NCBI GenBank assembly: GCA_024103425.1
Contig: JAGFIS010000045.1
Location: forward strand, 1 to 64,000
Length of the DNA stretch: 64,000 nucleotides
Direction of reading: 5' to 3'
From: Chitinophagaceae bacterium
GTDB taxonomy: Bacteria; Bacteroidota; Bacteroidia; Chitinophagales; Chitinophagaceae
Shown: piece by piece, positions 44,228 through 61,771 of the stretch
Position numbering within the stretch: position 1 is the first letter of the stretch
Layout of the letters: every line of letters begins with the position of its first letter
The notes under the pieces: model-generated
Databases searched by the model: none
Told to the model about the DNA's origin: nothing
What the model saw: only the letters and a program-made list of their open reading frames with translations
Made by a program: the position numbers and the translations under genes

Positions 44228-45256
44228 TTATAAATTGCTGAGTGCAGGAATAACTTCAGGCGGAATATTGCCATTTATCACTTTGCGCGGTACATTGGCT
44301 TTCATATGTTTTAAACCATAGAAAAGCAGGTAGGCTATGAAGGCCAGTCTTAATAATAAAAGAAACCCTCCGCCAATAAGAGGAAAAAATAAAAGCGAGC
44401 CCAGCAACAACAGGATCGCTGCTCCAATTATAATCCAGTTAACTATATATTTTCCGGTAGTATTCCCGGCAATTATTTCTGCAGCAGGATTTTTCCGGCT
44501 GAGTGTTTTAACAAGTGTGGTTACAAAAGGGGTGTACATTATCCGGTTATCGGCAAAATTGCCCACACCTTTGAACGTCACGGAGTAGAAAGAATCGGTG
44601 CCGTTATTGTGAACTATTTTACAGGCGTAGTTATTTGTTTTATATCTGTTGGGAAAATAGAACAACTGCAACTGACGGATATGCTTATACGGAATACAAA
44701 TTTCTGTAGTGTCTTCTCCCGAAAAGCAAAGTGCATCATCCTTTAAAACCCAGGTAGTCATTTTTTCAAACAGGCTTTTCCGGTAGACATAGCTATAAAC
44801 GCCGTTTTCGTTTTGAATGACAGGAGCATGATTTTCGGGATTTTCATCCGGCAGGTTTGCGGACGCCGGTTCAGACGGAACGGGCGTTTTCTCCTGTTTA
44901 GGGTTACCGGCTTCGTGATTCACTTTCAGTTGATTCATGTAGCGCTTGTCAATACGCCAAAATACTATTCCGTAGATGATGGTGATAACCGGCCACAACA
45001 TTACGAGCGTCGTCTGAGCATTGTACCAGGCATCTTTCTGTGCCTCATTGCCTGTTCCTCCTGATTTATTATACCAGAAACTTACCAACAGGGTTACAAG
45101 GATAATAGTAAACGGAACGATCAAACTCCCAATAATTACCGGCATGGAAAATCTGATTGACAGATGTTTTTTACGATAAGATTTTACCCAATGCAGATGC
45201 CTGTTAACCAGGTAAATTGATAAAAGCAAAGGAAAAAGCCATATAAAAATTTTCAT
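44228..45256 (-). CDS. Multipass membrane protein with central soluble domain, unknown
   Basis: A 342-residue protein with no firm family match. About three N-terminal helices (residues 3-20, 38-62 and 85-105) are followed by a Pro/Glu/Asn-rich linker (EKTPVPSEPASANLPDENPENH). A beta-rich domain comes next (WVLKDDALCFSGEDTTEICIPYKHIRQL), which resembles bacterial PH-like membrane domains, and then two closing helices. The ATG at 45256 is preferred to a TTG one codon earlier. It is the last gene of the minus-strand WG/Sel1 block, separated by 96 bp from the WG gene. It could be an inner-membrane partner of those exported proteins, by position only. Confidence 0.7.
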   Translation of the reverse strand: MKIFIWLFPLLLSIYLVNRHLHWVKSYRKKHLSIRFSMPVIIGSLIVPFTIILVTLLVSFWYNKSGGTGNEAQKDAWYNAQTTLVMLWPVITIIYGIVFWRIDKRYMNQLKVNHEAGNPKQEKTPVPSEPASANLPDENPENHAPVIQNENGVYSYVYRKSLFEKMTTWVLKDDALCFSGEDTTEICIPYKHIRQLQLFYFPNRYKTNNYACKIVHNNGTDSFYSVTFKGVGNFADNRIMYTPFVTTLVKTLSRKNPAAEIIAGNTTGKYIVNWIIIGAAILLLLGSLLFFPLIGGGFLLLLRLAFIAYLLFYGLKHMKANVPRKVINGNIPPEVIPALSNL

Positions 45257-45351
45257 CAAGATATTCAGTTTGTGTTGGGTTTGTTCATTTTCCGGTTACT
45301 AATAATTACCTGAAGAGATTCATTACTGGCCCCCTGCAGGTTTTAGTTGGA

Positions 45352-46791
45352 TCATATTTCGGATTGATTTGCTTTTAAATCTTTTGCTACCCTTTCTCTT
45401 TTCTGATTGATATAAAATTCGTTTTCACCATCACCTTTTACTCTGAAAACTCCGGGATCATCCGTGGTGTACAAGGAACGGTATTTGACGGGTACCACTT
45501 CTTTTCCTTTCAGGTTGATGGCTCCGTAGCGTTCAGCGTCTCCATGACCGATGGTAACCACCAAATAACCATTATCCGGATCCTGAATAAACGAATATTT
45601 AAACGGCGTAAGTTCTTTACCTGTTTTATCCACCAACGCCCAAAATCTCTCATCGCCCTTATAGAGAAGTACCTGAGCTACTCCGTTTTTAAAATCCATG
45701 GCGCCATCGTACTTGAAAGGGATGATGGTTTTACCTGAGGCATCAATATAGCCGAATTTTTCTCCTTTTTTGACCGCGCAAAGCCCATCGTGAAACTGCG
45801 TTAATTCACCGGGATTGAAATCATATTCGTTCAGGTAAATGAAATCATATTCCAGGGGAATAACCATCTCACCTTTGTGATTGATGAATCCATATTTTTC
45901 ACCAGATTTCACGGCTATCAAATCTTCCTCTTCCGGCATATGCATACCGTTGTATTTTAGCGGAATAACTTCTTTTCCTTTCTTATTGATTACACCGTAT
46001 TGATCGTTTTTCACTGCAACAGACAGTCCACTCTTTGTATAACCGACAATCCGGTCATAGCGTTTGGAGGTTAAAGCTTTTCCACTCACATCAATCGGGA
46101 AAAAGCCTTCTTCATCGGCAACGATGGCAACGCCTTTATCAAACATACCGGCTTCCCGGAATTGGGCAGGAATTTTTTCCGCGCCGGTTTTGTCGAGATA
46201 GCCCAGCTTGCCGTTTTTGTTAAATAAGGCCAGGCCCTCATAAAAATAAACCGGACGGTTGACGGCTGCTTCTTCCTGGTCGAAAACAATTCCGTCATAC
46301 GCCAGGGGTACGACTACTTCACCTTTCTTATTGATAAATCCCCACAATTCGGCTTCAGGTGTCAGTTTGCTAACCAGAGCCAGTCCATTTTCATCAAAGC
46401 CAAAAGCGTCATCAAATTGAAAAGGAATGACGGTTTCTCCTTTCCTGTTGATAAAACCGGACTTATAACTTTTTAAATCACGGACAGCCGCCAATCCTTG
46501 CTGAAAGTAGTTGATATCGGCATACTGAGCGGGAATGACTTCCTTTCCCGATTCATCAATGTATCCCCATTTTAGCGGCGTTTCCTCAGTGGCGGGAGCC
46601 ACTCCGGCCAGACCGTCTCTGAAGGGTGTGGCATACATATACTTAGCCGGGATTACAATTTCACCGGTGTTTTTGTTTTTGAATCCGTACAACTCTTTTT
46701 CTCCCTGAAAAGGAATCAGGTTTTGAGCCTTCAGATAGAAAGGATTGTTTAGAACTAAAAAGAGGACGAATCCAATGAATATCTTTTTCAT
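45352..46791 (-). CDS. Exported WG-repeat protein (479 residues)
   Basis: The signal peptide is MMKKIFIGFVLFLVLNNPF, ending about LKAQ at residue 24. The rest is almost entirely WG repeats of about 40 residues, each containing a core like WGYIDESGKEVIPAQYADI followed by a FxxGLAxV strand. About ten copies are visible. Such repeats fold as small beta units and are thought to bind ligands or surfaces, and no enzyme domain is present. A TTG codon precedes the ATG and was not used. It lies 63 bp after the Sel1 giant gene on the same strand. Confidence 0.88.
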   Translation of the reverse strand: MKKIFIGFVLFLVLNNPFYLKAQNLIPFQGEKELYGFKNKNTGEIVIPAKYMYATPFRDGLAGVAPATEETPLKWGYIDESGKEVIPAQYADINYFQQGLAAVRDLKSYKSGFINRKGETVIPFQFDDAFGFDENGLALVSKLTPEAELWGFINKKGEVVVPLAYDGIVFDQEEAAVNRPVYFYEGLALFNKNGKLGYLDKTGAEKIPAQFREAGMFDKGVAIVADEEGFFPIDVSGKALTSKRYDRIVGYTKSGLSVAVKNDQYGVINKKGKEVIPLKYNGMHMPEEEDLIAVKSGEKYGFINHKGEMVIPLEYDFIYLNEYDFNPGELTQFHDGLCAVKKGEKFGYIDASGKTIIPFKYDGAMDFKNGVAQVLLYKGDERFWALVDKTGKELTPFKYSFIQDPDNGYLVVTIGHGDAERYGAINLKGKEVVPVKYRSLYTTDDPGVFRVKGDGENEFYINQKRERVAKDLKANQSEI

Positions 46792-46854
46792 CAATAATTT
46801 TTTTGGAGAATCAGTTATTTATATTGTATCATTTTGTCTTAAAATCCCTTATCC

Positions 46855-49800
46855 TTATTTAAAGAAGATCTTTTCAACGGGTTCTTCTTTTATTCGATTC
46901 AGCATCAAAAAAGAAGCTTCATAGGCTAAATCATCCATCTTACTTTGCTCCAACATTTGATTTACATACTCAGGGAGAGCAAAATTTGGTTTGTAATCCG
47001 GAGATAAAATATTTTGAATTTCCTCTTTTATCTCATCGTATTCGTCACTATTCAATCCCAATCTTTGCAGCGCATTGGGCTGAAGCCAGGTCTTTAACTG
47101 TTGAATTGCTTTTGGATTCCCTAATTTGGCACCTGAATAGTAATTTTCATATGCAGTTTTAACATCTTTATTCACCCCCAAGCCGTTTTCATACATATAT
47201 CCCAATAAATAAAACGCATCAGAATTAGGCAGTTTGGTCAATTTCTCCAGCAAGTTAACAGCCGTTTTGTAGTCTTTTTGATTCACAGCTTGTTGGGCTC
47301 TGCCGTAATATTCTCCACCGAGGTAAATTCCTTCTTTCCGGATGAGCTCAAATATATCCGAATAAGCATAGATACCATCTAAAAGGACTACTTTCAAATA
47401 GAGCCTTAATGCTTCCCTGACATCTTTTTTTACGCCTTTTCCTTCTGCATATAAAGAAGCTAATTGAGAGAGTGCAGCTCTATGTCCTTTATTTGCAGCA
47501 AGGGTCAGCCATTTCACTTCCTCATTAAGGTCTTTATTTGTTCCCAATCCGTTTCCGTATAACATACCCAACCAATGCATGGCTCCCATATGCCCCATTT
47601 CAGCAGATTTTTTTAAAAGTGGAAAAGCAGAACTGTATTCTTTCTTTTCAATAAAAGCATAGGCATCTTTCATAATAGAAACAGCCTGTTCAATTTGCCG
47701 GGAAGACTCTGATATCCTTACTGCACCATCATAAAGATCTTTTGCTCCGGCCACGTTTAAACCCATTGCTTTTTTGAGATATTCAAGGGCTAATTCTCTG
47801 TTTTTCATAGAGGGTAAGAGATAGATACCTCCCAACTCTTTCCAGGCAGTTGCTTCCCCGTTTTCCCCCGCTTTTTTATACCATGCAACAGCTTTTTCGT
47901 ATTCTCTTTGACCTTCTAAAACCTTTCCCAATTCAAACATCCCTTCGGGAAGTCCTTTATTTGCCGCCTTTTCGAACCAAATCTCCGCTTCTTTAGGATT
48001 TTTAATGGCCTCATTGTATCGATATCCTATTCCGATATGTAAATCTATTCTCCCCGAAGGATCCAGAGGGCTCAGCTTTTTATACCAATACATACTTTTA
48101 GCTATGTCTTTAGCTCCGAAAGTCTCCGATTCATAACCTCGAGCCAACCAGCTGATAGCCGTTGAATCTCCTTTTTCTCCGGCCATCGTCAGCCATTTTA
48201 GTGCTTCCCTTTCATTTTTGGCTACGCCCTCTCCTTTGTTATACATAAAATATATAGAGAACATAGCTCTCACGTCTCCCTTTTCAGCCGATTGTTTATA
48301 TAAATTGAGCGCTTCAGAGGGATTCGTTTCCTCTATCTCAAAAGCCTTATGATACTCTGCCTCGCCGTTTGTCTTTGCTAAGGCTTGGTTTTGTGCTTGT
48401 TCTTTTTCCAAAACCGCTAGTTCTTTAGCGGACTTCAGAGAAGATAGCAGGAAATCTACATCCAGACCTTCGTTTTTGGCCCGGTTAAAATAATACTCAG
48501 CCTTATCAAGGTCTCTGAAACCTTTATCTCCATTAAGATACAATTTCCCGATTTGAATTAATTTGTCCGTTTCTCCATTTTCGTAGGCTTTTTGATACCA
48601 ATACACGGCTTTTCCAAGATTTCTTATTCTTTCATCTTCATAGGCATATCTGTATCCCATTGTTGAAAAATCATAATGATTTCCGTGGTTTTGGTAATAT
48701 TCCTCTAAGAGTTTCATACCTTCTGCAGGCTTGTTCAGCTCTTTATAGTAAAGATTGCCCAACAGATAAGCTGCAAAATCATATCCGTTTTGATGCGCTT
48801 TCAGATACCACTTTTCGGCTTGTTGCAGATTCTTGGGCACTCCTTTTCCATCTCTATATAAATCCCCCAATTGGGTCATAGCCATAGTATTTCCCAAATC
48901 TGAAGCTTTTTGATACCAGGTTACAGCCGATGAATAGTCTTTTTTCACTTCAGAATCCATACCCTTGTTCTTTTCATACACTCCGTCTGTGTTGGGTTTT
49001 AGGCCGGATGAAGAGGAAGAAGCCAACCCTTTTTCATAATCCTGAATTGCTTTCGCAATCTGCCGGTATTGACTGGCAGCTAAAGTATCGCCTCTGTCAG
49101 CCAATGACTTATACCATTTGGCCGCCTCAACATAATTATCATAGGTATTGTCAGCCGTATATAGTTTAATTAAATCCCAGGTACTTAAACTGTCTCCTAA
49201 TTCGGCAGCCTTTTGGTACCAGTAGATTGTGCTATCTTTATTTTGGAGTTTCGGATCGTAATTGAACTGAATGCCGAGATAGCGCATCGATGAAACATCA
49301 CCATTTTGAGCTGCCATCCGATACCATTTTATAGCTTTTTCTTTATCTTCCCGCAATCCATTCATGCCCAGATCATAAAGAGACCCTAATTCCACCATGC
49401 TCTCTACATATCCTTTGGCAGCAGAAGATTCAAACAGCTCTATGGCTTTTTGGGTTTTATTTTCTTCCAAGAACTTTAAGCCTTCAAAGTATTGTTGTTC
49501 ACCTGAAATTTCATCCGCTATGGGTTGCTGTGTCACTGCAACATTTTGATTCGGTTTTTTCAATTCTTTTGCGAGCCGGGCATACGCATCCTCTCCTTTT
49601 GCAGAACCATTATCGGCAGCTTCCTTGTACAGTTCAAGCGCCTTGTCGATATCTTTGGCTTTGCCCATTCCGTTTTCGTACATGTATCCCAGCGCAAAGA
49701 AGGCGTCAGGCTCACCTTTTTCTTCGGATTTTTCCAGCCAATAGGTTGCCTTACTGAAATCCTGTTTTATCTCTTTTCCTTCCAGGTATAGTGCACCCAG

Positions 49801-50409
49801 TATAAAAGAAGACCTGGAATCACCGCCGTTAAAACCTTTTTCGTAATACTCAATGGCTCTATTGATATCTTTTTCGGTGCCATTTCCTCTCAGGTAGTTC
49901 TCTGCCGTTATGCGGGCAGCTTCACCATGACCGGCATCAGCGGCTTTCTTATACCAGACGAAAGCATCTTTTTCGTATTTAAGAAAATCCCTTTCATTGG
50001 CATAGATTCCGGCAATTCTGAACATCGCCCCGGGATTGCCCGCTTCCGCCGCTTTTTTGTACCAGTAAAAAGCCTCCGTTTGCACAGTAACGTTAGGTGT
50101 GTTATGGTTGTAAATCTGAGCCAGTTGATAGAAAGCACCGGGCTGATTTTTTTCAGCAGCTTTTTTATACCATTTGATAGCTTCTTCTTCGCTGGCCGGC
50201 ACACCCTGTCCTTCTTCGTACATATATCCCAGCATGGCCATGGCGTCTGCTGAGCCCCGGTTAGCTGCTTCGGAATACCATTTAAAAGCTTCGGTAAAGT
50301 TTTGCTTGCCATAGGCATCCTGGCCTTTTTGGAAGGCCTCTGTCTGGGCCAACAGGGTAGTGGCAGAGAAAAAAAGAAATCCGAGTATGATGATTATTTT
50401 GTGTTTCAT
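46855..50409 (-). CDS. Giant exported Sel1-repeat (TPR-like) protein, 1184 residues
   Basis: The signal peptide is MKHKIIIILGFLFFSATTLLAQ, followed by more than twenty Sel1-like repeats of about 36 residues with the pattern A-x-x-WYxKAAExG-x-x-xAMxxLGxxYxxGxGVxKD. Sel1 repeats form a curved helical solenoid for protein-protein contacts. No catalytic domain was found. The middle carries a Ser/Gln-rich linker (GLASSSSSGLKPNT) and an Ala/Gln-rich hinge (LEKEQAQNQALAKTN), dividing it into three solenoid blocks. The length is unusual for the family. It lies in the minus-strand WG/Sel1 block. Confidence 0.92.
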   Translation of the reverse strand: MKHKIIIILGFLFFSATTLLAQTEAFQKGQDAYGKQNFTEAFKWYSEAANRGSADAMAMLGYMYEEGQGVPASEEEAIKWYKKAAEKNQPGAFYQLAQIYNHNTPNVTVQTEAFYWYKKAAEAGNPGAMFRIAGIYANERDFLKYEKDAFVWYKKAADAGHGEAARITAENYLRGNGTEKDINRAIEYYEKGFNGGDSRSSFILGALYLEGKEIKQDFSKATYWLEKSEEKGEPDAFFALGYMYENGMGKAKDIDKALELYKEAADNGSAKGEDAYARLAKELKKPNQNVAVTQQPIADEISGEQQYFEGLKFLEENKTQKAIELFESSAAKGYVESMVELGSLYDLGMNGLREDKEKAIKWYRMAAQNGDVSSMRYLGIQFNYDPKLQNKDSTIYWYQKAAELGDSLSTWDLIKLYTADNTYDNYVEAAKWYKSLADRGDTLAASQYRQIAKAIQDYEKGLASSSSSGLKPNTDGVYEKNKGMDSEVKKDYSSAVTWYQKASDLGNTMAMTQLGDLYRDGKGVPKNLQQAEKWYLKAHQNGYDFAAYLLGNLYYKELNKPAEGMKLLEEYYQNHGNHYDFSTMGYRYAYEDERIRNLGKAVYWYQKAYENGETDKLIQIGKLYLNGDKGFRDLDKAEYYFNRAKNEGLDVDFLLSSLKSAKELAVLEKEQAQNQALAKTNGEAEYHKAFEIEETNPSEALNLYKQSAEKGDVRAMFSIYFMYNKGEGVAKNEREALKWLTMAGEKGDSTAISWLARGYESETFGAKDIAKSMYWYKKLSPLDPSGRIDLHIGIGYRYNEAIKNPKEAEIWFEKAANKGLPEGMFELGKVLEGQREYEKAVAWYKKAGENGEATAWKELGGIYLLPSMKNRELALEYLKKAMGLNVAGAKDLYDGAVRISESSRQIEQAVSIMKDAYAFIEKKEYSSAFPLLKKSAEMGHMGAMHWLGMLYGNGLGTNKDLNEEVKWLTLAANKGHRAALSQLASLYAEGKGVKKDVREALRLYLKVVLLDGIYAYSDIFELIRKEGIYLGGEYYGRAQQAVNQKDYKTAVNLLEKLTKLPNSDAFYLLGYMYENGLGVNKDVKTAYENYYSGAKLGNPKAIQQLKTWLQPNALQRLGLNSDEYDEIKEEIQNILSPDYKPNFALPEYVNQMLEQSKMDDLAYEASFLMLNRIKEEPVEKIFFK

Positions 50410-50517
50410 TTTTTTGTTCGTTTTTCTACAACTTCGCCATTATCGTATCATGTTTCCATATTTACGGCATATTCAGGATTGTCTTTGTTTGTTAATTCAC
50501 TATTCGTTAATCACTAC

Positions 50518-53229
50518 TCAGTACCCATAATATTCAAGAGCTTCCTTTGCATATTCATCGCCCAGATCTGCTGCTTTTTTAAACCATTTAATAGCTTCCA
50601 TTATGTTTGGAGTCACACCAAATCCGGATTCATACATTTCCGCTATACGAATCATAGCCTCAGTATTACCTTTTTCAGCCGCTTTTTTGTACCAATTAAG
50701 CGCTTCAGTATGGCTTTGAGGAACACCCAGTCCGACTGCATATATTTTTGCTATATCAAGCATGATTTCAGTATTACCTTTCTCTGCTGCTTTTTTGTAC
50801 CATTCAAGTCCTTTGGTGTAGTTTTTAACCACGCCTTTCCCATCGATATATTTGCTTCCCAAATTAATCATTGCCAAAGTAAATCCTTTTTCAGCCGCCT
50901 TTTTGTGCCAGTTGATAGCTTCGGTATAGTTTTGAGTCACGCCTTGTCCTTTGTCATACATTATTCCCAGGTTAAACATGGCTTCGGGGATTCCTTTATC
51001 TGCGAGATTTTTAAATAAGGTGAATGCTTGCTTATAGTCACCTTTACTATATATTGCCATTGCTCGGTCAAATTCCGCCTTTATGCCTTGTGACTGATTA
51101 TTATTTTGCGTATTATCTTCTTTTTTAAGGTCGAAACTGTTTTTTGCCAGAAAATCTTTTGCCTGCGACATGCCTGCATCGGCAGCTTTCTGCAGCCATT
51201 TTTGGGCTTCTGTAAGGTTCTTCTCTACTCCGTTACCGATATAGTATTTTAATCCAAGATTATTCATAGCCACAGGTTCTCCGTTTTCAGCGGCACGCTT
51301 TGTTAATTCAAATGATTTTTTTGGATCTTTTTGAACGCCCCAGCCATTGCTATAAAGGACTGCCAGATTTGCCATAGCCTTGTACGAACCTTTATCTGCA
51401 GCCTGCTGATACCATTTTAATGCTGTCTGATAATTTTGGGACACTTTTATCCCGTTTTGATAAATATAACCCAAATTATTCATTGCGTCCGGCAACCCCT
51501 TTTCAGCTGCTTTTTCGTACCATTGGATGGCTCTGGGAATATCCTGTGGCACACCGTTACCATAATGGAAAATGATGCCGAGATTATACATGGCTTTTTC
51601 TTCTCCTTTTTCTGCAGCCTTTTCAAATAATGAAAGAGCTGTCTTTAAATCTCCTTTCTCATAAGCTGCGATAGCCTGGTTGTATAATTCTATCCCATCC
51701 TGTATGGAATTATTATTTCCAATTTCTGACCAGGGCTTTCCGGGAGCCGGTGCCGATGTAGGATAGCCGGTCTTTTTCATTTGATAGTCGGCCAGATCTT
51801 TAATTGCCTTTTGCTGTTCGGAGTTGAACATGGCTTTTAACTCCCCCACCGAAATGTTATGAACTTCAATTATCCCCAGAAATGCGCCATAAAAATCAAT
51901 ATCTGCCATTTGCAGTAATTTCTCTTTAACCTTTTGGACTATCACGGGTTTTGCAACTCCGTTTATTGCTAAATCTTCAGCATATGAACCCAATGCTTTC
52001 CCACGAAATTCAGACGGGTTCGGTTTCTGGTCTGCCTGTGCTATTTTTTTTGCATATTCCTCCTCAGCCGAAGGCTTTGGTGTCGCAGCAGTATTTTTTT
52101 GTTTCAATCCATCACCACCGCTATCATTAGCATAAGAATTATTGGCTTTATTCGGATCTTTGGTTACTACCAAATCCGGCTTTTTGTTTACCCTTTCACT
52201 GCCATCTGCGATATTGATTTCAGTCCATTCGTTGTTGATTTTCACTTTTGCATATCCATTGGGTAGCGTATTGATGGCATCGTACTTTATCGGAATGAGT
52301 TCTTTGCCCGTTTTGTCAATAATTCCCTTTTTTTTATCCAGCTGAACGGTAGCAACTCCATCAGAAAAATCATAAACCTGATCATATTTTACAGGAATCA
52401 CCTCTTTGCCTGTTTTGTCCACAAATCCCCATTTCCCATTTGACTGTACACGGGCCAATCCTTCAGCAAAACCCCAGACTCTTTCATATTTTACCGGGAT
52501 AACTTCTTTTCCCGTCTTGTCTATAAAACCCCATTTACCACCGGTGGGGACATACTTTCCTGTAGCGCCTTTGTTAACGGCGGCCATGCCTTCTTTGAAA
52601 CTTTGGACGTCGTCGTATTTTAAAGGGATGACGATCTTTCCCGTTTTATCCATAAAGCCCCATTTACTGCCTTCTTCCTGGACGGTAGCGAGCCCGTTGG
52701 AAAACCTTCTTACATCCGGATATTTTACGGGGATCACCTCTTTACCGGTTTTATCGATAAATCCAAATTTGTTATTCAGCCCCACCACAGCCAATCCTTC
52801 TGAAAAATCTGCTGCATATTCATACTTAAAGGGTACAATTTCTTTACCCGACTTATCGATAAAACCCCATTTGCCGTTGGATTGAACTGCTGCCAGCCCT
52901 TCAGTAAACTTGCTGACATCTTCAAATTGAAAGGGTATAACTACTTTTCCTGTTTCATCGGCAAAACCCCATTGTCCGCCTCTTTTAAGGCCATTTTTAA
53001 CAACAGCTCCTTTATTTACGCCGGCTAATCCTTCAGAAAAATCCTGGGCATCGTCAAATTCTTCACCGACAATAACTTTTCCGTTTTTGTCATTGATTCC
53101 GAATTTCCCGCTGGAGTACTTTATGGTTTTTTGACCAAAAGCGGTCATCGTTCCTGCGAGAAATAATAGCGTTGTAATTACAAATGCGTTCATTTTTGCC
53201 ATAAAAGGAAATAACAGTCTTGTTTTCAT
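50518..53229 (-). CDS. Exported WG-repeat / Sel1-repeat fusion protein, 903 residues
   Basis: The signal peptide is residues 1-33, ending TMTAFGQ. Residues about 35-345 are WG repeats (for example GKWGFVDKTGKEVIPVKYDQV), about eight copies and very regular. A linker follows, with a DUF2059-like helical stretch near 420-490 (YAEDLAINGVAKPVIVQKVKEKL). Residues about 515-903 are two blocks of roughly five Sel1 repeats each, separated at the QNNNQSQG linker. The two repeat types, found singly in neighbouring genes, are thus joined in one polypeptide, which argues for a common complex. It ends 108 bp before the Sel1 giant. Confidence 0.92.
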   Translation of the reverse strand: MKTRLLFPFMAKMNAFVITTLLFLAGTMTAFGQKTIKYSSGKFGINDKNGKVIVGEEFDDAQDFSEGLAGVNKGAVVKNGLKRGGQWGFADETGKVVIPFQFEDVSKFTEGLAAVQSNGKWGFIDKSGKEIVPFKYEYAADFSEGLAVVGLNNKFGFIDKTGKEVIPVKYPDVRRFSNGLATVQEEGSKWGFMDKTGKIVIPLKYDDVQSFKEGMAAVNKGATGKYVPTGGKWGFIDKTGKEVIPVKYERVWGFAEGLARVQSNGKWGFVDKTGKEVIPVKYDQVYDFSDGVATVQLDKKKGIIDKTGKELIPIKYDAINTLPNGYAKVKINNEWTEINIADGSERVNKKPDLVVTKDPNKANNSYANDSGGDGLKQKNTAATPKPSAEEEYAKKIAQADQKPNPSEFRGKALGSYAEDLAINGVAKPVIVQKVKEKLLQMADIDFYGAFLGIIEVHNISVGELKAMFNSEQQKAIKDLADYQMKKTGYPTSAPAPGKPWSEIGNNNSIQDGIELYNQAIAAYEKGDLKTALSLFEKAAEKGEEKAMYNLGIIFHYGNGVPQDIPRAIQWYEKAAEKGLPDAMNNLGYIYQNGIKVSQNYQTALKWYQQAADKGSYKAMANLAVLYSNGWGVQKDPKKSFELTKRAAENGEPVAMNNLGLKYYIGNGVEKNLTEAQKWLQKAADAGMSQAKDFLAKNSFDLKKEDNTQNNNQSQGIKAEFDRAMAIYSKGDYKQAFTLFKNLADKGIPEAMFNLGIMYDKGQGVTQNYTEAINWHKKAAEKGFTLAMINLGSKYIDGKGVVKNYTKGLEWYKKAAEKGNTEIMLDIAKIYAVGLGVPQSHTEALNWYKKAAEKGNTEAMIRIAEMYESGFGVTPNIMEAIKWFKKAADLGDEYAKEALEYYGY

Positions 53230-53291
53230 AATTAAACAGCATTTAAAACATTCAAAATATTTTCCGGTTTCAGGGATTAAGTTCTATCAAA

Positions 53292-54476
53292 CTATTCCAC
53301 CTTGTTTCCGTTGCGGTCTATATCAATAAACTTTCCATCTTTCTTTACACGGGCGATGGCTTTCTTATTTTTATTGGAAGTGTCGTACATAATTTCAAAT
53401 TGCGGTTCCAACAGGATATTGCCTTTATAATCCATTAAACCCCATTTCCCGTTCTTTTCCACTCCTAAAATATTCAGGTCATTACTAAGAATTTTAATTC
53501 CATCGTATTTAATGGGTAAAAGCACTTTGTTGTTCATGTCAATAACCCCCCAGACGTTACCCTTTTTGACCAACACTCGCCCCTCATAATACGAATAGGT
53601 GGTTAAAGTTTCATAATTAAATGGAATCACTGTTTTTCCCTGCTCATCAATCAGACCCCATTTACCCTCCAGCTGTGCTGTTCGGTACCGGTCATTAACA
53701 GGATAATCATCCAGGCTGCTGTAAATAACGCGTATCACCTCCTTACCACTTAAATCCAGAAAGCCTTTCTTTTGATTAGCTCCCCTGCCGATAGTTGCTC
53801 TTGCCGGGCCGTCTTTAAAATCACCAATAAAGGCATATTTCATTTCCGTAAGCAGATTGCCCTTTGCATCGGCCAAAGCATAGAGATAATCATACTCATC
53901 TCCATTCGGGTCCTCATTCCCCAGACTGAAACGGTCATTAGAAAGATAATCTGCAGATTGGTATTTAAACGGGAAAAGCAACTTTCCCTCTTTATTGACA
54001 AAGGATCGCAGCTCTTTATCATTTTCAACTTTGCCATAGCCGTTTTCAAAAGGGTCGGCAAAGGAATACTGAGCCGGAACCACAGCTTCTCCTTTGGTAT
54101 TCAGATAACCGTATTTGTAATTCCCGTCTTTTCCTTTATTGGCAAAGACCCCCATTCCATCGGAAAAGGTTTCGGTATAATCATATTTTAAGGGAATTAC
54201 CTCCACTCCTTTTTCGTTGATGTAGCCCCATTTTCCGCCTACCGGTGTAGGCGCATTCGGATCATCGGGCCATTCGGCGCCAATATTGACCACCGCCAAA
54301 CCGTCAGAGAAGTCATCATAAAAATCATATTTGGGAGCGACCACCACTTTGCCGGTGGCAGCGTCTTTAAATCCGGTTTTTTCGTTATCACCCTCAAAGG
54401 CTATTAATTTCTGAGCGCTGGAAATCGTAAACGTTCCCAAAACCAATACAATTAAGGCAAACAGTTTATTCTTCAT
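53292..54476 (-). CDS. Exported WG-repeat protein (394 residues)
   Basis: The signal peptide ends at about residue 21 (FTISSAQ). The mature part is about eight WG repeats, for example GKWGYINEKGVEVIPLKYDY and GKWGLIDEQGKTVIPFNYET. The first mature residues (KLIAFEGDNEKTGFKDAATGKVVVAPKYDF) closely parallel those of the 45.4-kb WG protein (NLIPFQGEKELYGFKNKNTGEIVIPAKYMY), so the two are paralogues. It lies 62 bp before the WG-Sel1 fusion gene on the same strand. Function unknown. Confidence 0.88.
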   Translation of the reverse strand: MKNKLFALIVLVLGTFTISSAQKLIAFEGDNEKTGFKDAATGKVVVAPKYDFYDDFSDGLAVVNIGAEWPDDPNAPTPVGGKWGYINEKGVEVIPLKYDYTETFSDGMGVFANKGKDGNYKYGYLNTKGEAVVPAQYSFADPFENGYGKVENDKELRSFVNKEGKLLFPFKYQSADYLSNDRFSLGNEDPNGDEYDYLYALADAKGNLLTEMKYAFIGDFKDGPARATIGRGANQKKGFLDLSGKEVIRVIYSSLDDYPVNDRYRTAQLEGKWGLIDEQGKTVIPFNYETLTTYSYYEGRVLVKKGNVWGVIDMNNKVLLPIKYDGIKILSNDLNILGVEKNGKWGLMDYKGNILLEPQFEIMYDTSNKNKKAIARVKKDGKFIDIDRNGNKVE

Positions 54477-54579
54477 GATTTCTTGTTTTAAATTTAATTA
54501 TTAAGAGACGAGTAATTTTTTTGTTGTCTGTTGTTTTTTTATGCTATTCTCTACTTGTACTTTAACTGCACACAGTTCT

Positions 54580-55473
54580 TTAATATTTTATTTCCCTTTC
54601 CCATATCCTCACTGTATTTTCATTTCGGTTAATGGATGTCTTTTTTATCCAATTGCTTTTATCGTCATATACATACTCAAAATCTTTTACAGATGCTGAT
54701 CCGTCTTCTCCGGAAATTTCTTTTTCCTGACTAACATTTCCTTTATCATCGTATTTATACTCTTTTGTTGTGTGCAATTTTTCGTCTGCGTCAAATTCTT
54801 TTTCTTCAACTAATTTTCCGTTTTCATATTTATATTCATACCGGGTTTCCAATTTGCCGTCGGGATCCAACGCCTGCTTACCCGTATTGTTTCCTTCCTT
54901 ATCATACTGATAGGTATAAGAGTAATAAACCTCTTTGTCTTTTGAATGGTGAACTTCTTTTATTTTGTTTCCCATTTCATCATATTCATAGTTCACCGAC
55001 TCGAAGAAATCCTTCTTATTATAAGGAGTGGTTTTTACAGATTTTAATAATCCTTTGTCGTCGTATTCATAAACATACTCCATCGTTGCGTTTGTGTTCC
55101 AATAATCCAGCTCTCTTTTGATTTTTGATTTATTGGAACTTAAATAAGAAATTTCTCTTGTGGTCCGGGTTGCTCCATCCTGTATGTCTCTTTGGGTTAT
55201 ATATCCGTACAGATTGTATTTTTCTGAAGAAGTCTTTTCTTTTTCATCTTTTACAACTTCATCATCTTTTAAAATACCCTTGTATTCCACTGTTGTTGTT
55301 TCCCTCACTTCTCCGTGCAAGTTATTTTTCACCCAATCACTATTGGCTGTTACTTCTTCAGCTTCCGCTTTTAAAACTTCATCTACTTTATCTTTTTCCA
55401 GGATACCGACCAGCACTACTAGAAAAATAAATGCGAAAGCTGCATAAAGTAAGATCTTCAAGATTTTTTTCAT
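54580..55473 (-). CDS. Membrane-anchored YD/RHS-like repeat protein
   Basis: A 297-residue protein. One N-terminal helix (ILKILLYAAFAFIFLVVLVGIL) anchors it, followed by a charged stalk (residues 27-80). Five or six imperfect repeats of about 26 residues follow, with the pattern YxYDDKGN-x-x-x-x and then a short strand, like YD repeats of RHS proteins but without an RHS core or toxin domain. It lies upstream of the WG genes on the same strand (103 bp gap). By architecture it is another beta-repeat surface or periplasmic protein. No family name is certain. Confidence 0.75.
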   Translation of the reverse strand: MKKILKILLYAAFAFIFLVVLVGILEKDKVDEVLKAEAEEVTANSDWVKNNLHGEVRETTTVEYKGILKDDEVVKDEKEKTSSEKYNLYGYITQRDIQDGATRTTREISYLSSNKSKIKRELDYWNTNATMEYVYEYDDKGLLKSVKTTPYNKKDFFESVNYEYDEMGNKIKEVHHSKDKEVYYSYTYQYDKEGNNTGKQALDPDGKLETRYEYKYENGKLVEEKEFDADEKLHTTKEYKYDDKGNVSQEKEISGEDGSASVKDFEYVYDDKSNWIKKTSINRNENTVRIWEREIKY

Positions 55474-55647
55474 TGGCCTTTCATTTAAAGTTCTACATGG
55501 ATTTATTTAAAAACCTGATAATTTTTCTGAATCATTACCGGCTTGTTTATGTTTATTTAAAACAGCCATAATCAACTAATCTGTTCCTTTACTTTTATTT
55601 CTTCTTTAATGAGCCATTGTGATTCTACAGCATATATTTTTATCATT

Positions 55648-56685
55648 TTACTTTCTCTTTAAGTTTTTAAGATACCGCACGATGAAAAAGATAATAATCA
55701 GAACAATTATTACCGGTAAAGCAATAACCAGAAGTGTCAGCAATATGGGTATGAAACTTCCGATAGAGCCGTCAACATCGTAAGGGTCGTTTAACGGGAC
55801 TTCTTCGTACGTCAGCGCGTCTAATGATGATGCACTGAACTCATCCATCTTCGAAAACAGATTTTCAGCATCCGGAATGATCGCTTCAAAAGAGAATGAG
55901 TTTTTAATGTCGGGCAATGTTATGACCAGGTTGTCGTGCGGCTTAGGTGAGAAGTTGATTTTTTCGCCTGCAAACACCAGCCGGTCTTTGTTGAACCGGA
56001 ATCCGAATCCGCCGGATATGCCTTTCACGTCTTTCAGCTTCAGGCCATCGTTGAGTTGTACATAGAAGTTTCCTTTTTCAATCGGCTGAAACCACACACT
56101 CCCGCTTTCTAACAGATAAATAAAAGCACTGCGCGATTCCACATTATAGCCTCGGTGGACACTGCTGTTGTTGGTGCTTACGAGAAAATAAACAGTAACC
56201 GTTTTACTTTCATTGGGCAGGAAGTCCATTTGCCAGACCTTCCAGTTGTCACCTGAGGGGTAAAGGATTTCGTCCTCGTAATTGTTGATCTCTTCGTCGA
56301 GAACGGGCATCCATTCATCATTAGATTTGATCTTGAACCTGCTGAGCGAGTCGATTCTCACTTCATTCAATAGGCCTGCGCCACCTGCATAAATTCCGTT
56401 TACCGGATAGCCCATTTTGAAGCTGAGATGCTCGCCGGTTGTGTTGCGAAACAGATATACCCCTTTCACTACGGCGTATCCTTTGTAAAGTTGTATGTAC
56501 ACCTGCTCGCGCTGCATCTGCACCTTGTTGAAAGCAGCCGAGTCTTCAGGATAGAGCATGGTGAAGACGGTACCGCCTGCATTCCAGATACCGGGCTGTG
56601 CAGCGTTGGCAAATGTTTTATGAACTGCGGAGAGTGAAAACAAAATAAAACATAAGGCAAAAGCTACGGAGGCTGTTTTTTTCAT
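55648..56685 (-). CDS. Exported protein with C-terminal membrane helix, DUF4424-like
   Basis: A 345-residue protein with a signal peptide (ending TFANA), a long beta-rich extracytoplasmic part, one C-terminal helix (FIPILLTLLVIALPVIIVLIIIFFIVRYL) and a short basic tail (KNLKRK). The beta part contains motifs such as VKGVYLFRNTTGEHLSFKMGYPV, similar in style to DUF4424-type proteins that present a surface domain on a C-terminal anchor. It is the first gene of the minus-strand repeat-protein block. I cannot assign a function. Confidence 0.7.
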   Translation of the reverse strand: MKKTASVAFALCFILFSLSAVHKTFANAAQPGIWNAGGTVFTMLYPEDSAAFNKVQMQREQVYIQLYKGYAVVKGVYLFRNTTGEHLSFKMGYPVNGIYAGGAGLLNEVRIDSLSRFKIKSNDEWMPVLDEEINNYEDEILYPSGDNWKVWQMDFLPNESKTVTVYFLVSTNNSSVHRGYNVESRSAFIYLLESGSVWFQPIEKGNFYVQLNDGLKLKDVKGISGGFGFRFNKDRLVFAGEKINFSPKPHDNLVITLPDIKNSFSFEAIIPDAENLFSKMDEFSASSLDALTYEEVPLNDPYDVDGSIGSFIPILLTLLVIALPVIIVLIIIFFIVRYLKNLKRK

Positions 56686-57322
56686 GGGGTAGTACTTTAT
56701 GGCTTAACGTTTTTAACTTATAAGTTGTAGTGTTTTTAAATAATTCATTTTTGTTCCTGCAGTAAGGAACAATGCTTCACTTTCTGTCACGCGATTCCGC
56801 TTTTTGGCAAAAAGCAAACACACTGCCGACCGGTGCCCGAGGCAACAGTCGCAGTTCGATTTTTAAAAAATAATAGATGGCGGTAGGGGTATAACGGAAA
56901 AAGACTTCCTGATATTTTGTAAATTTAGGGATAATCTTTGATAATGAGCGTGTTTATGCCCATTGAGCGGATATTATGGCGCGACAGTATGAGGTGGTTT
57001 TTTATGTTGTTGAAAGGTGTTGACGATTTTTATTTGTCAGTGCCGCGGCTGGCAGGATGTAGCAGAATTACTCCAGCGAAGATGGATTGGGTTTCTACGG
57101 TTTGGCAGCTTGGCGTTTGTGGTGGAATTTTATCGATAAACTTCGAGCGAAGAATGAATTTTCAACTTATCGGAAATGTTCAATTGTAAATACTCTCTCC
57201 GGATTATAATATGTTTTTTAGTTCAAACATCTGCTAATTTACATACCTATGGTCTTTTTTCTGCTTATCCGAAATAGACATTGCCTGATATTTTATTATC
57301 AATAAAAACTACATGTGACAAT
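56686..57322. other. 637-bp gap with three short inverted repeats, no convincing gene
   Basis: Three perfect inverted repeats lie within 100 bp: AACTTATAAGTT (56715-56726), TTGTTCCT/AGGAACAA with a 6-base loop (56751-56772), and GCTTTTTG/CAAAAAGC with a 1-base loop (56799-56815). They lie upstream of the gene at 56685 and could be operators or RNA hairpins. A possible 83-codon ORF at 56938-57189 (+) has no signal, fold or family resemblance and was not accepted. Confidence 0.4.
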
Positions 57323-58723
57323 TTAGTTGTCCACAACCTTCCAGTCGCCCATGAAAAAACCCGTGGCATTTTTATTTATATTTCTTCTCTTGTTGCCTCC
57401 TTCATTTCTGCCTGACATCTGATTCGTATAAACTCCTTCAGTCTTTGAATAGACAATAGTCTGATTCGCACCGATCAGTTTTATTTCTGAAGCATTTTCT
57501 TCTGCCCTGAAGCCATCTTTTACAACATTAAATACTTTAAGAAATTCATTGTATGCAGGCTTGGGGTTTCCGTTTTCATCAAAGAAACCCAATGCCCCTT
57601 CTTTATTGGCTACATCAATGAGTTTGAAGAGATAAATTTTATTGATATTATTTTTATAGGCGAAGTCAAGCATTTGTATAAGCAGGGAACCAAATAACGG
57701 CGAATTGGCAATATCAAGCTTGTCTGAACCTTTTTTCAAGTTTGCATAAAAATTAAACTCAGTGATGATGGAATTTTTCAAACCGGGTAAATCTGTATGC
57801 TGAATTTCAAATTTATTGTTTTGGTAAAAGTGGAAAGATGAGTTTATTTTCTTCCTGAAATCAGAATCCTGAATCAGGTCAAGATATTCATGCCGTTGCG
57901 CTGCTCCTCCGTTGGAAAATTCTGCAGTAAAGCCACAACAGTAAACGGGCCTCTGATAGTTTTCAAGAGCTGCTGCAGTTGATTTTGCAATTTTGATAAA
58001 ATCATCAGGAGAACCCCAGAAAAATCTTTTGGAATCAGGCTCATTTCCGATTTCAAAACTTACATTTTGCAACACATTCTTTTTCTGAAGCGAGTCTATA
58101 AAGTTGGTCAGGTAATTCTGATAGTCATCTAAGTTTACAGGAGGATATCTGTTGGTAAGATTTTGTTTTTCATCTGAGTTCTTGAAATCAGGTCTGTCAG
58201 TCGTTTTATATTGAATAGACGGAATGTTTGGGAAATTGGATAAACAAAGCAATACATTGAATCGGTTATTGTGAACAAGGTGTTCTACAAGCCGTTCAGC
58301 AGTTCCGGGCTGTTGTGTAATACCATTGGTAAACAGCTCATAAACCCGCAGGTCATGAATGCCGTCACTCTGAATTCTATTGAGTGCATTTTCATACATC
58401 TGTTGATTTGCCCGGTAGTCTTGTAAAAAGCCGATGTTGAAACCAAACTCTACTTTATGAAAGCCGGATTGGATTGTTTTATTATTTTGAATAATTGTCC
58501 TGGCAGGTGTGCTGTTTGCCTTTTTAACCTTTGGCACATTAATGTTACTGATTGCATTTCCTGCTTTACCATCCAAGGTTGATGAAGTCCGATAATCTTA
58601 AAAAAAAGAATCTGCATTGTTCTTTTCATTGTGAAAGCCCGAAAACCCGTAAGTAATAAACGCAATCAATAAAGAAGTCAAAAAAATAGGTAAAGCACCA
58701 GACCTGTTTTTTTCATCATGCAT
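57323..58723 (-). pseudogene. Clan GH-A-like glycosidase, 5' end disrupted at T7 and T8 tracts
   Basis: The intact body (57323-58576, 417 codons from a TTG) is a TIM-barrel glycosidase with an acid/base motif GNEPDS (Glu179 counted from 58576) and a nucleophile motif ITEFNF (Glu273), as in clan GH-A families such as GH39 or GH5. It lacks a signal peptide, but the missing N-terminus is visible upstream. MMKKTGLVLYLFF begins at 58719 and stops after a T7 tract. Its continuation LTSLLIAFITYGFSGF is in the body frame (open from 58723) and runs into a TAA right after a T8 tract, at 58598-58600. One frameshift and one in-frame stop therefore separate the signal peptide from the enzyme. Sequencing error, decay or slippage are all possible. 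Confidence 0.7.
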
Positions 58724-58853
58724 CTTTTAAAATTACGTTTCTGACTTGCAGGAGAAACTTTAAGTTTAACGGAAGAAAAATCTTTATTACAACATATTAA
58801 ACCTATTTATAAAGATGCCATCAAATACCTAAAATCTCCCTTAAGTACTGAAT

Positions 58854-59990
58854 ATGCGATTTATCTATCCCATTTTCTGCTTTTTCGCCCTTTTCCTATT
58901 AACGTCATGCAAAAAGGATAAAGTAAATGAAACAGGGTCCCAAAATGAATTAAAACCACAGGCGGCAGGTCTTACCAACAGAAATTACAGCAATCTTTTT
59001 TTAACTCCCCCGGCTTCGCCTGATGTAATGAAAATAGCAAACTGCGTGGTGGTAAGAGTGACATGGCGGGACCTGCAACCCAATGCTAACGGCGATATTG
59101 TAAGACCCAATCTGATAGATGACGCGATTAATTATGCACAACAACAAAACAATGCCAATCCGGGACTGAATATGAATATCAAAATCCGGGTGATGTGCGG
59201 CGTGGCTTCTCCTGATTGGGTAAAAACACAAAGCGGAAGTTTTATACTGCTTACCGATCTGGCAGCCGTTGCTACCAGCCCTTCCGATTCTTTGATGCCA
59301 AGATTCTGGCAACCCGAGTTTTTAAATGCGTATGCCTCTTTTCAGGCAAAGCTTGCCGCTCTTTATGACAATGTTCCCGAGGTGAGAGAGATTGTAAACG
59401 GAGGCACCGGAGCCTTATATGGTGAGGCATTCATCAGGTATGCAGGGAATGGCGGGCCAACAGGAACCAATTCCACCAGTTATATTAATGCAGGATGGGC
59501 GGCAGAGAAAGACCTTGCAGCAATACGAAGTACCATTGATGCGATGAAAGTGTGGAAGAAGACAAGAATCAGTATGGCATTTAATGAGTTTATTAATATA
59601 GCAATGCCACCCGGTGTAACCAGAGATGCGGCTCCAACTAAATCTGTGATTGATTATATGGTGGCCACTTTAGGCAAGCACGCAGTATTAGGAAATAACT
59701 CACTGCGTGATGATAATGCACAGGGCGCTGATAACTGGTTGCCGGGTGGTTTGATGTACGAGATAAGCGGATACATGAAAACTGTCCACAATACACAAGG
59801 GGTACCCATTTACTATCAGACAGCGACTATTGATAAATTGTCCGATTTGAGAAGTACTATAGAAAAAGGAATTTCATTGGGAGCAGGCGCTATCGAAACA
59901 CCCGTTCCGCCCAATCAATTGACTAACTATATTTCCCTGAGTGAGCTACAGTCGTATGACAGCAGGCTTGAAGCACAGGCTGGCAAGTAG
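58854..59990 (+). CDS. Lipoprotein with TIM-barrel glycosidase-like fold
   Basis: A 378-residue lipoprotein: leader MRFIYPIFCFFALFLLTSCKK with the lipobox cysteine at about residue 19, followed by KK. The mature part resembles a clan GH-A barrel (ANCVVVRVTWRDLQPN near the first strands; MNIKIRVMCGVASPDWVK; GALYGEAF and ISMAFNEFIN as possible acidic motifs), but I cannot assign catalytic residues with certainty. It lies 28 bp before a second GH-A-like lipoprotein gene on the same strand. Exported enzyme acting on a glycan is the best guess. Confidence 0.7.
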   Translation: MRFIYPIFCFFALFLLTSCKKDKVNETGSQNELKPQAAGLTNRNYSNLFLTPPASPDVMKIANCVVVRVTWRDLQPNANGDIVRPNLIDDAINYAQQQNNANPGLNMNIKIRVMCGVASPDWVKTQSGSFILLTDLAAVATSPSDSLMPRFWQPEFLNAYASFQAKLAALYDNVPEVREIVNGGTGALYGEAFIRYAGNGGPTGTNSTSYINAGWAAEKDLAAIRSTIDAMKVWKKTRISMAFNEFINIAMPPGVTRDAAPTKSVIDYMVATLGKHAVLGNNSLRDDNAQGADNWLPGGLMYEISGYMKTVHNTQGVPIYYQTATIDKLSDLRSTIEKGISLGAGAIETPVPPNQLTNYISLSELQSYDSRLEAQAGK

Positions 59991-60018
59991 AAATCATTAC
60001 TTTTAATTCCACCATTTT

Positions 60019-61071
60019 ATGAGTAAGGTCAAAATAAATTTTATCATAGTTAGCTTTAGTATTCTTTTAATCATTTCATGTAAAAAGAATTCGCCAATTA
60101 ATCCATCCGGTAAAACCACCTTTTCCAATCCTTTCGGAGTATTGGTAAATGACACGACTCCCGGCACCAACAATACAACTTTTAAACTTGCAGTGGCAGA
60201 TCAATATGGCGTACCTTATTTACGCTATGCTATTTTATTGTCCACCTGGAATGGAGCAAACGATGCAGGCTACGATGCACGAATAGCGAAAGGTTATAAA
60301 ATAATTTTAAATGTGAATAATGATCGGGCTGTAGCCGGAAACCCAGCGCCGTTTCCAACAGATATTGCAGCTTATAAGGCAAAGTTGTCCGGTCTTCTCT
60401 CTGTTTATCGTCCTGAATTGATAGCAGTAGAAAATGAAGAAAACACCTATCAGTATCACACCGGACCTTTGAGTGATTATATTTCTGAGTTACAGGCTGC
60501 AATTGATGTAGCACACCAGCAGGGGATAAAGGTCACCAATGGCGGAATTACATCTGAGATCGTCTTTCTGGTCTGGAAAGATTATATGGCGAGGGGATTG
60601 ACAGACTCTGCAGCAAATTTTGCATCGCGGACTATGTCGCCGTCTGTTATTGCAGATCTGCCGGCATTAGCCAACCATCCATATCTGGCCGGAAAAGTGA
60701 GCAATGCGGAATATCTGATTTCGCAGTATAGGATGTTGAACCTGGATTTTGTGAATCTGCACTGGTATGAACCCATCGCGGACAATTTTTCTTCCACCGC
60801 TTCATTTTTGAATATGGATGCCTTTAAAGAAACCGTGGATTATCTGAGGCGGGCAACCGGGAAAAATGTAATTACCAATGAATACGGGCAGGACAATATG
60901 GATCCGGCGATAACTTCGGCTATGATGCAGGCCATATTGGACATAAAAATGGCTTATGCTATCTGGTATGACGGCGACGGCACTTCAGCAAGGGGACTGC
61001 ACGAAACGGGCACTACAACATTACGGAGCACAGGAATAGCATTTAAGAATTTTATTGCGGAACATTTTTGA
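60019..61071 (+). CDS. Lipoprotein glycosidase of clan GH-A type
   Basis: A 350-residue lipoprotein: leader ending ISCKK (Cys at about residue 21). The barrel carries the expected carboxylate pair, Glu140 in AVENEEN (acid/base) and Glu288 in VITNEYGQ (nucleophile). FVNLHWYEP also fits a substrate-binding strand. The substrate is unknown, since GH-A covers many families. It probably forms an operon with the lipoprotein at 58.9 kb. No SusC/SusD pair is in the window, so the glycan importer must be elsewhere or absent. Confidence 0.78.
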   Translation: MSKVKINFIIVSFSILLIISCKKNSPINPSGKTTFSNPFGVLVNDTTPGTNNTTFKLAVADQYGVPYLRYAILLSTWNGANDAGYDARIAKGYKIILNVNNDRAVAGNPAPFPTDIAAYKAKLSGLLSVYRPELIAVENEENTYQYHTGPLSDYISELQAAIDVAHQQGIKVTNGGITSEIVFLVWKDYMARGLTDSAANFASRTMSPSVIADLPALANHPYLAGKVSNAEYLISQYRMLNLDFVNLHWYEPIADNFSSTASFLNMDAFKETVDYLRRATGKNVITNEYGQDNMDPAITSAMMQAILDIKMAYAIWYDGDGTSARGLHETGTTTLRSTGIAFKNFIAEHF

Positions 61072-61191
61072 AACAGAATCTTACCGGGCTATTTTTCTTG
61101 TCTATATCCGGGCAGGCCAGAATGATAAACAGTGCAAAATGATTCGGAGGATGCCAATTCCTGATTGGGTTTATAATGTCACATGTCAGTT

Positions 61192-61771
61192 TTATTTGAT
61201 CCCCCCCGGCGTCATAACCTGATGGTAAACGATAATAGCCGAAATGCCGACTCCATCTTTCGTTTTGCCTTTTATTGTCACAGTTTTGGTATTGCCAGAT
61301 TCAGTCAGAGTTGCTTTGCCACTGCCACCTGGTTTGAAGCCTGAATTATTATCAAGTGTGCTGATGTTGTATGTTTTCCCGCTGATTAATTTTCCAAACC
61401 CAATTGATATAGAAAATTTATCCATTCCTTTTTTAGCGGCCTCCTTATCATCAATGATTAATTGCACACTGGATAATTCATTATCGGCTTTTCCTTTTAC
61501 TGAATATTGATTGCCGAAAGAATTGTCGCCGGTTAATCCTTCGCTGCAGGTAGTTTCATTACTTGTAACATGATAAGTGCCTGCATTGGCGCCACCGGTG
61601 AGTGTTATGGAAATATCAGAACCAACCGAACCACTATTCGTCGTTTCCCTTGGGCTCGAGGTTGCAGGAGTAGTTGAGTTTTCACTGCCGGAAGTTTTAG
61701 TTGTATTATTTCCGGAGTTGTTACAACTAAATATTAAAATAGTTGCTGCGAGTGTGATGATTTTTTTTCAT
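61192..61771 (-). pseudogene. Small lipoprotein gene with frameshift in an A8 tract after the start codon
   Basis: On the minus strand ATG at 61771 is followed by A8. Read as A7 it gives a good lipoprotein leader (MKKIITLAATILIFSCNNSG) continuing through a Thr/Ser-rich linker (TTKTSGSENSTTPATSSPR) and a beta-rich domain to the stop at 61192. Read as written (A8) the frame stops after 14 codons, and the long frame has no ordinary start before a GTG at 61467. So an insertion of one A, real or a base-calling error, disrupts the signal. The domain is of unknown function. It follows a signal-bearing protein and the OmpA gene on the same strand. Confidence 0.7.

Follow-up and report, generated by a model that had tools for sequence, protein, structure and literature searches.

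Between positions 44228 and 56685 of the window (the whole 64,000-nucleotide stretch of DNA that was analysed), an uncultured Chitinophagaceae bacterium carries seven open reading frames, all on the minus strand, whose products are exported or membrane proteins made up of repeats. A preliminary description of this DNA had set out the same seven genes, and all of these reading frames are present. They are given here in 5′ to 3′ order and are referred to below by their first coordinate.

55648 to 56685, minus strand: 345 residues, exported, with a C-terminal membrane anchor; the first (5′) gene, of doubtful membership in the system
54580 to 55473, minus strand: 297 residues, N-terminal anchor, RHS/YD-type repeats
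53292 to 54476, minus strand: 394 residues, exported WG-repeat protein with about 9 repeats
50518 to 53229, minus strand: 903 residues, exported WG-Sel1 fusion
46855 to 50409, minus strand: 1184 residues, exported Sel1 solenoid
45352 to 46794, minus strand: 480 residues, exported WG-repeat protein with 10 repeats
44228 to 45259, minus strand: 343-residue membrane protein with 3 helices, a predicted PH-like domain (residues ~155-255) and 2 further helices; the 3′-most gene

By hydropathy, the first six proteins each have an N-terminal hydrophobic segment that could be an export signal or an anchor, which bears out the proposal that all but the last begin with a signal peptide or membrane anchor. 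Searches of Pfam and NCBIfam returned no catalytic family over cutoff for any protein of the block, again as proposed.

The repeat proteins of the block

The WG repeat (PF14903) is recognized in 45352, in 53292 and in the N-terminal part of 50518, with scores that are, in no assigned order, 285, 316 and 200 bits against a gathering score of 25.6, and Pfam places 6-10 WG-repeat stretches in each of these three proteins. In 45352 and 53292, WG is the sole Pfam family. The Sel1 repeat (PF08238) passes its gathering score of 30.7 bits with 366 bits in 46855 and 295 bits in the C-terminal part of 50518, and the content of 46855 amounts to 13 stretches by Pfam or about 26 units by a local profile. 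The WG proteins, the WG-Sel1 fusion and the 1184-residue Sel1 solenoid named in the preliminary description thus all stand on profiles over cutoff. The middle segment of 50518 (RGKALG...) is weakly shared with a protein of a second array in the same genome, the C20 array described below.

The structure predicted for the 394-residue WG protein 53292 is a beta-meander (pLDDT 87.7, pTM 0.76). Compared with beta-propellers using Foldseek, this model shows local similarity (E 4e-9) and a global TM of up to 0.36, which suggests that WG repeats may form beta-meanders that resemble propeller blades but are arranged differently, perhaps as an open structure. The number of WG repeats per protein ranges from about 4 to 26, and this variation argues against a closed propeller. 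A sequence search found no solved WG relative.

The two 5′-most genes are less readily assigned to families. The YD-like repeats earlier ascribed to the anchored protein 54580 hold narrowly, as it passes RHS_repeat (PF05593) with 25.9 against 22 bits, no single stretch passing alone at 0.01, and a full-length search gave weak RHS-type matches only. Identification of 54580 as an RHS polymorphic toxin was rejected: the protein is 297 residues long, and Pfam and NCBIfam show no toxin or other domain. For 55648, the label DUF4424 (PF14415) was dropped, since the match reaches 12.3 bits against a cutoff of 27 (E=0.096); neither 55648 nor 44228 has a Pfam family over cutoff. Hydropathy gives 55648 a second, C-terminal anchor, and no relative beyond itself was found among 101 genomes. 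It also gave no real alignment with a protein of genome G062 whose membrane end resembles 44228. This gene may be a bystander.

A membrane protein with a predicted PH-like domain

The last gene, 44228, had been described as encoding a five-helix membrane protein. An AlphaFold2 model built on seven homologs (mean pLDDT 70, with the PH-like part at ~60-90 by ten-residue block) retains the five helices, at residues 2-28, 37-64, 71-116, 267-290 and 297-320, but reveals a domain that the description had overlooked. Between helices 3 and 4 lie seven strands (155-224) and a C-terminal helix (234-255), a predicted arrangement that fits the PH fold. When the model was compared with the PDB by Foldseek, the top matches were PH domains, including the bacterial 3dcx and 3hsa, at E about 0.01, with probability mostly 0.9-1.0 and a whole-chain TM of about 0.2. 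In Pfam, no known bPH sequence profile was found for the window protein, the best match being bPH_11 at E=0.17 for the homolog in G017. The positive-inside rule would place the PH-like domain on the cytoplasmic face.

It is the PH-like part of 44228 that is the conserved partner of WG arrays. The three N-terminal helices (window 44927-45256) resemble the C-terminal membrane part of the exported G062 protein, with E about 1e-6, and a weaker likeness of the same helices (44927-45256) is seen in G020, the G062/G020 comparison loci being L051 8721-9809 and L052 9420-10523. From this likeness, 44228 seems to have gained extra helices. A tree of the PH-like domain leaves the window copy unplaced, on a long branch.

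Recurrence of the WG and PH-like pairing

Two PH-like paralogs lie in the same genome (C20:84004 and C45:2222), and homologs were found in G017 (same genus), G248 and G190, as well as in G420 and G454, which belong to another family. A scan of genome contigs added three further genomes, two of Chitinophagales and one of Pedobacter. The domain is rare, occurring in 5/296 family genomes, one of these weakly; a wider search of class and order sets gave no further loci, and none was found in plasmids or viral contigs. The search for conserved co-occurrence that the preliminary description had called for gave a positive result across several genera. A WG gene adjoins the PH-like gene at 5 of the 11 loci (the window, C20, G017, G248 and G190), and in the window the two are 44228 and the exported WG gene 45352, adjacent on the same strand. 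Against a WG-neighbour background assumed to be 0.75%, adjacency at 5/11 has P about 1e-8, and 4/9 loci at 2% gives 2e-5, where the whole 0.75-2% range is an assumption and some of the loci are not independent of one another. The PH-like gene lacks a WG neighbour at C45, Pedobacter sp. BS3, G420 and G454. At the level of genomes, WG genes are present in all 8 of the other examined genomes that hold a PH-like gene, compared with 28/61 in the family (Fisher p=0.003).

The canonical form of the system is the C20 locus of the same genome (G000:C20:84004-97782; L045/L046), where twelve genes form the locus: first the PH-like gene, then ten genes for exported WG or MORN proteins, and last a membrane gene. 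In G017, whose array apparently extends across two contigs, three WG/MORN-type genes follow the PH-like gene, and G248 and G190 each have a single long WG gene in that position. The closing membrane gene matches DUF6498, as tested on the G248 copy, and a gene of this type ends the array in C20, G248 and G017. In G635, a contig starts with a WG gene and, after it, a DUF6498-type gene, and the PH-like gene is at the end of another contig; at L068 the gene next to the PH-like gene encodes, by eye, an exported protein with a domain also seen in WG arrays. The G017 and G190 loci share a further membrane protein (L144 15287-15901 and L064 5839-6339), encoded within the WG array or behind it, whose copies in the two genera are 70% identical; it has no Pfam family and looks PH-like by eye.

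Other pairings of the window recur as well. Within the G017 WG array, an exported protein passes RHS_repeat with 24.7 bits (cutoff 22) and is a counterpart in kind of 54580, their direct similarity being weak. Other WG-Sel1 fusions are found in the bacterium's own genome, on C13, as well as in G026 and G049, and in G190 a WG gene and a Sel1 gene are separated by 26 bp. Apart from 55648, the genes of the block, six of the seven, are thus of kinds that recur together. The genome has 13 WG genes, three in the window block and eight in the one C20 array, so that their clustering is far from random, with tandem duplication explaining part of it. It holds 88 WG repeats, the next highest count among 61 sampled family genomes being 22; G017 has 52.

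In the family, the majority of WG genes are solitary and lack a PH-like gene. Two-component genes occur within 4 kb of WG genes at 4/35 loci. In two other genera (L118 7837-13632, L121 7008-12615), WG genes lie by eye among lookalikes of FHA proteins, PP2C phosphatases and Ser/Thr kinases. At L123 8268-10651 and L131 6148-8882, in two genera, WG proteins without a signal peptide are, again by eye, encoded beside a PLD-like gene, apparently a different, cytoplasmic context.

Arrangement of the block and its interpretation

The idea of the block as a system fares differently in its parts. The core association of WG proteins with the membrane protein, and of RHS and Sel1 repeats with WG, recurs, but the seven-gene unit does not: its order is conserved intact in no relative examined, and the PH-like gene, 3′-most in the window block, is 5′-most elsewhere. 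Nor do any of the seven window proteins match DUF6498. The intergenic gaps of 60, 62, 92, 103, 108 and 174 bp, all between genes of the same strand, had been called short, which is generous: elsewhere in the window, genes that run together on one strand are mostly -4 to 31 bp apart, and those of the paralogous C20 array mostly 0-50 bp. Gaps of 60-174 bp are no proof of one transcript. Scans for sigma-70-type promoters and terminators gave counts equal to the shuffled expectation, and a Bacteroidota-type promoter pattern was also at chance level, so that promoters speak convincingly neither for nor against a single unit. The GC content of the block, 0.37-0.41, is below that of the left flank.

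Directly upstream, 57183-61215 is 91-94% identical in DNA to a segment in another genus (G190:C21; L151 8379-2528), and the region has therefore been exposed to transfer; the identity would be a sign of recent transfer beside WG genes in both genomes. This segment of ~4 kb holds a GH39-like gene and two lipoprotein-type genes, and in G190 its edge is 14 bp from a WG gene. In G190, the counterparts of 58854 and 60019 are separated by an additional gene for a 582-residue protein (window 59982-60007 compared with L151 3736-5484). The alignments on either side overlap by 26 bp in the window, which suggests that the extra gene may have been gained or lost between short repeats.

The variable order, the lack of relatives for 55648 among the 101 genomes, gaps wider than those of other operons in the window, the lower GC and the abutting segment near-identical to that of a different genus all fit a passive origin, in which tandem duplication and recombination in a variable region gathered unrelated exported proteins with no shared function. 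We regard this as rather unlikely, given that in other genera the PH-like gene again adjoins WG genes, which there encode different WG proteins, and that the WG-Sel1 and WG-RHS pairings recur too. The block is not a random heap, as its core is seen again across genera and WG genes are repeatedly accompanied by RHS-repeat and Sel1 proteins. Taken with these recurrences, the PH-like/WG/DUF6498 arrays make the block a diverged relative, with its gene order changed, of a locus type that is conserved but undescribed. The core itself, WG proteins beside a rare PH-like membrane protein in several genera, probably marks an unstudied cell-envelope locus. That the block in particular belongs, as a diverged and rearranged form, to a modular Chitinophagaceae envelope locus, made of a PH-like membrane protein and an exported repeat set, is the reading toward which we lean by a little. 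Against it stand an intact order found nowhere, a PH-like gene in last place, a missing DUF6498 gene and a first gene, 55648, that is possibly a bystander.

The gene content, recurring adjacency, predicted PH-like fold and hydrophobic export or anchor segments are the observations on which a working model can be drawn. Here, a PH-like protein of the cytoplasmic membrane would be encoded together with exported repeat proteins in changing combinations around a WG core, with MORN, TPR/Sel1 and RHS-type repeats varying among loci and the canonical form adding the DUF6498 membrane protein. The exported proteins may make up an elongated scaffold for binding, located in the periplasm or at the surface, and the PH-like protein, its PH domain in the cytoplasm, could anchor this assembly or report on it. 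The WG, MORN, Sel1 and RHS modules would expand and swap, as expected for binding specificity under diversifying pressure. Because exported repeat arrays encoded with an inner-membrane PH-like protein suggest a membrane link, the most likely role would be in the envelope, as a scaffold or sensor attached to the inner membrane. The wider proposal of an undescribed, rapidly diversifying Bacteroidota envelope system, in which an exported array of interchangeable WG, MORN, Sel1/TPR and RHS proteins is coupled, for surface sensing or binding, to the PH-like protein (joined by DUF6498 in the canonical form), is more tentative and falls short of an even chance. In the literature searched, no tested function for WG repeats was found, though they occur in many bacteria; the recurring partner, PH-like plus DUF6498, gives a concrete handle and helps to pin down where WG proteins of this kind act.

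Sel1-type proteins can act as immunity proteins, and the exported WG, Sel1 and RHS-type proteins could accordingly be a diversified array of periplasmic immunity proteins or decoys against toxins or phage. The pieces of the tandem C20 array diverge, with 62-81% DNA identity, as this would have it; a study of a P. aeruginosa Tle1 toxin and its immunity protein came up for Sel1-like repeats (PMC13133936), and a WG lipoprotein is listed in a study of T6SS regulation (PMC8855297). The neighbours of the block that were read include no toxin, recombinase or T6SS gene, and PADLOC reports no defence family in the block beyond Sel1/TPR-type cross-hits, which makes this reading improbable. Similarly low is the probability that the Sel1 and WG proteins act on a cell-wall hydrolase or an exopolysaccharide machine whose genes lie elsewhere, regulating it in the way that the Sel1-like PA3978 (IltA) binds and inhibits the lytic transglycosylase MltF (PMC10746161), since the block has no hydrolase or polysaccharide synthase and its weak NCBIfam similarity to ExoR and AlgK, far under cutoffs, is generic to Sel1.

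Several known systems share single features with the block. RHS/YD polymorphic toxins have RHS-type repeats in common with 54580, where these score just over cutoff, but the window protein is short and no toxin domain was found in it. The periplasmic Sel1 regulators IltA/PA3978, ExoR and AlgK are envelope Sel1 solenoids like the window proteins, though the block lacks partner enzymes. DdE and DdF of enterocin DD14 are PH-type proteins needed in an export-linked gene cluster (PMC8657885); that cluster is an Enterococcus bacteriocin cluster with an ABC transporter and without WG proteins. Both this export role and the regulation of an enzyme by a Sel1 protein are parallels for block function by analogy only. 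Bacterial PH-like domains (PHb; PF08000 and related, PMC2817789) resemble 44228 in its predicted fold of seven strands and a helix, but the window protein passes no Pfam PH family and its domain is fused to membrane helices. The WG-repeat proteins (PF14903) share their repeat with three window proteins, which match this family far above cutoff.
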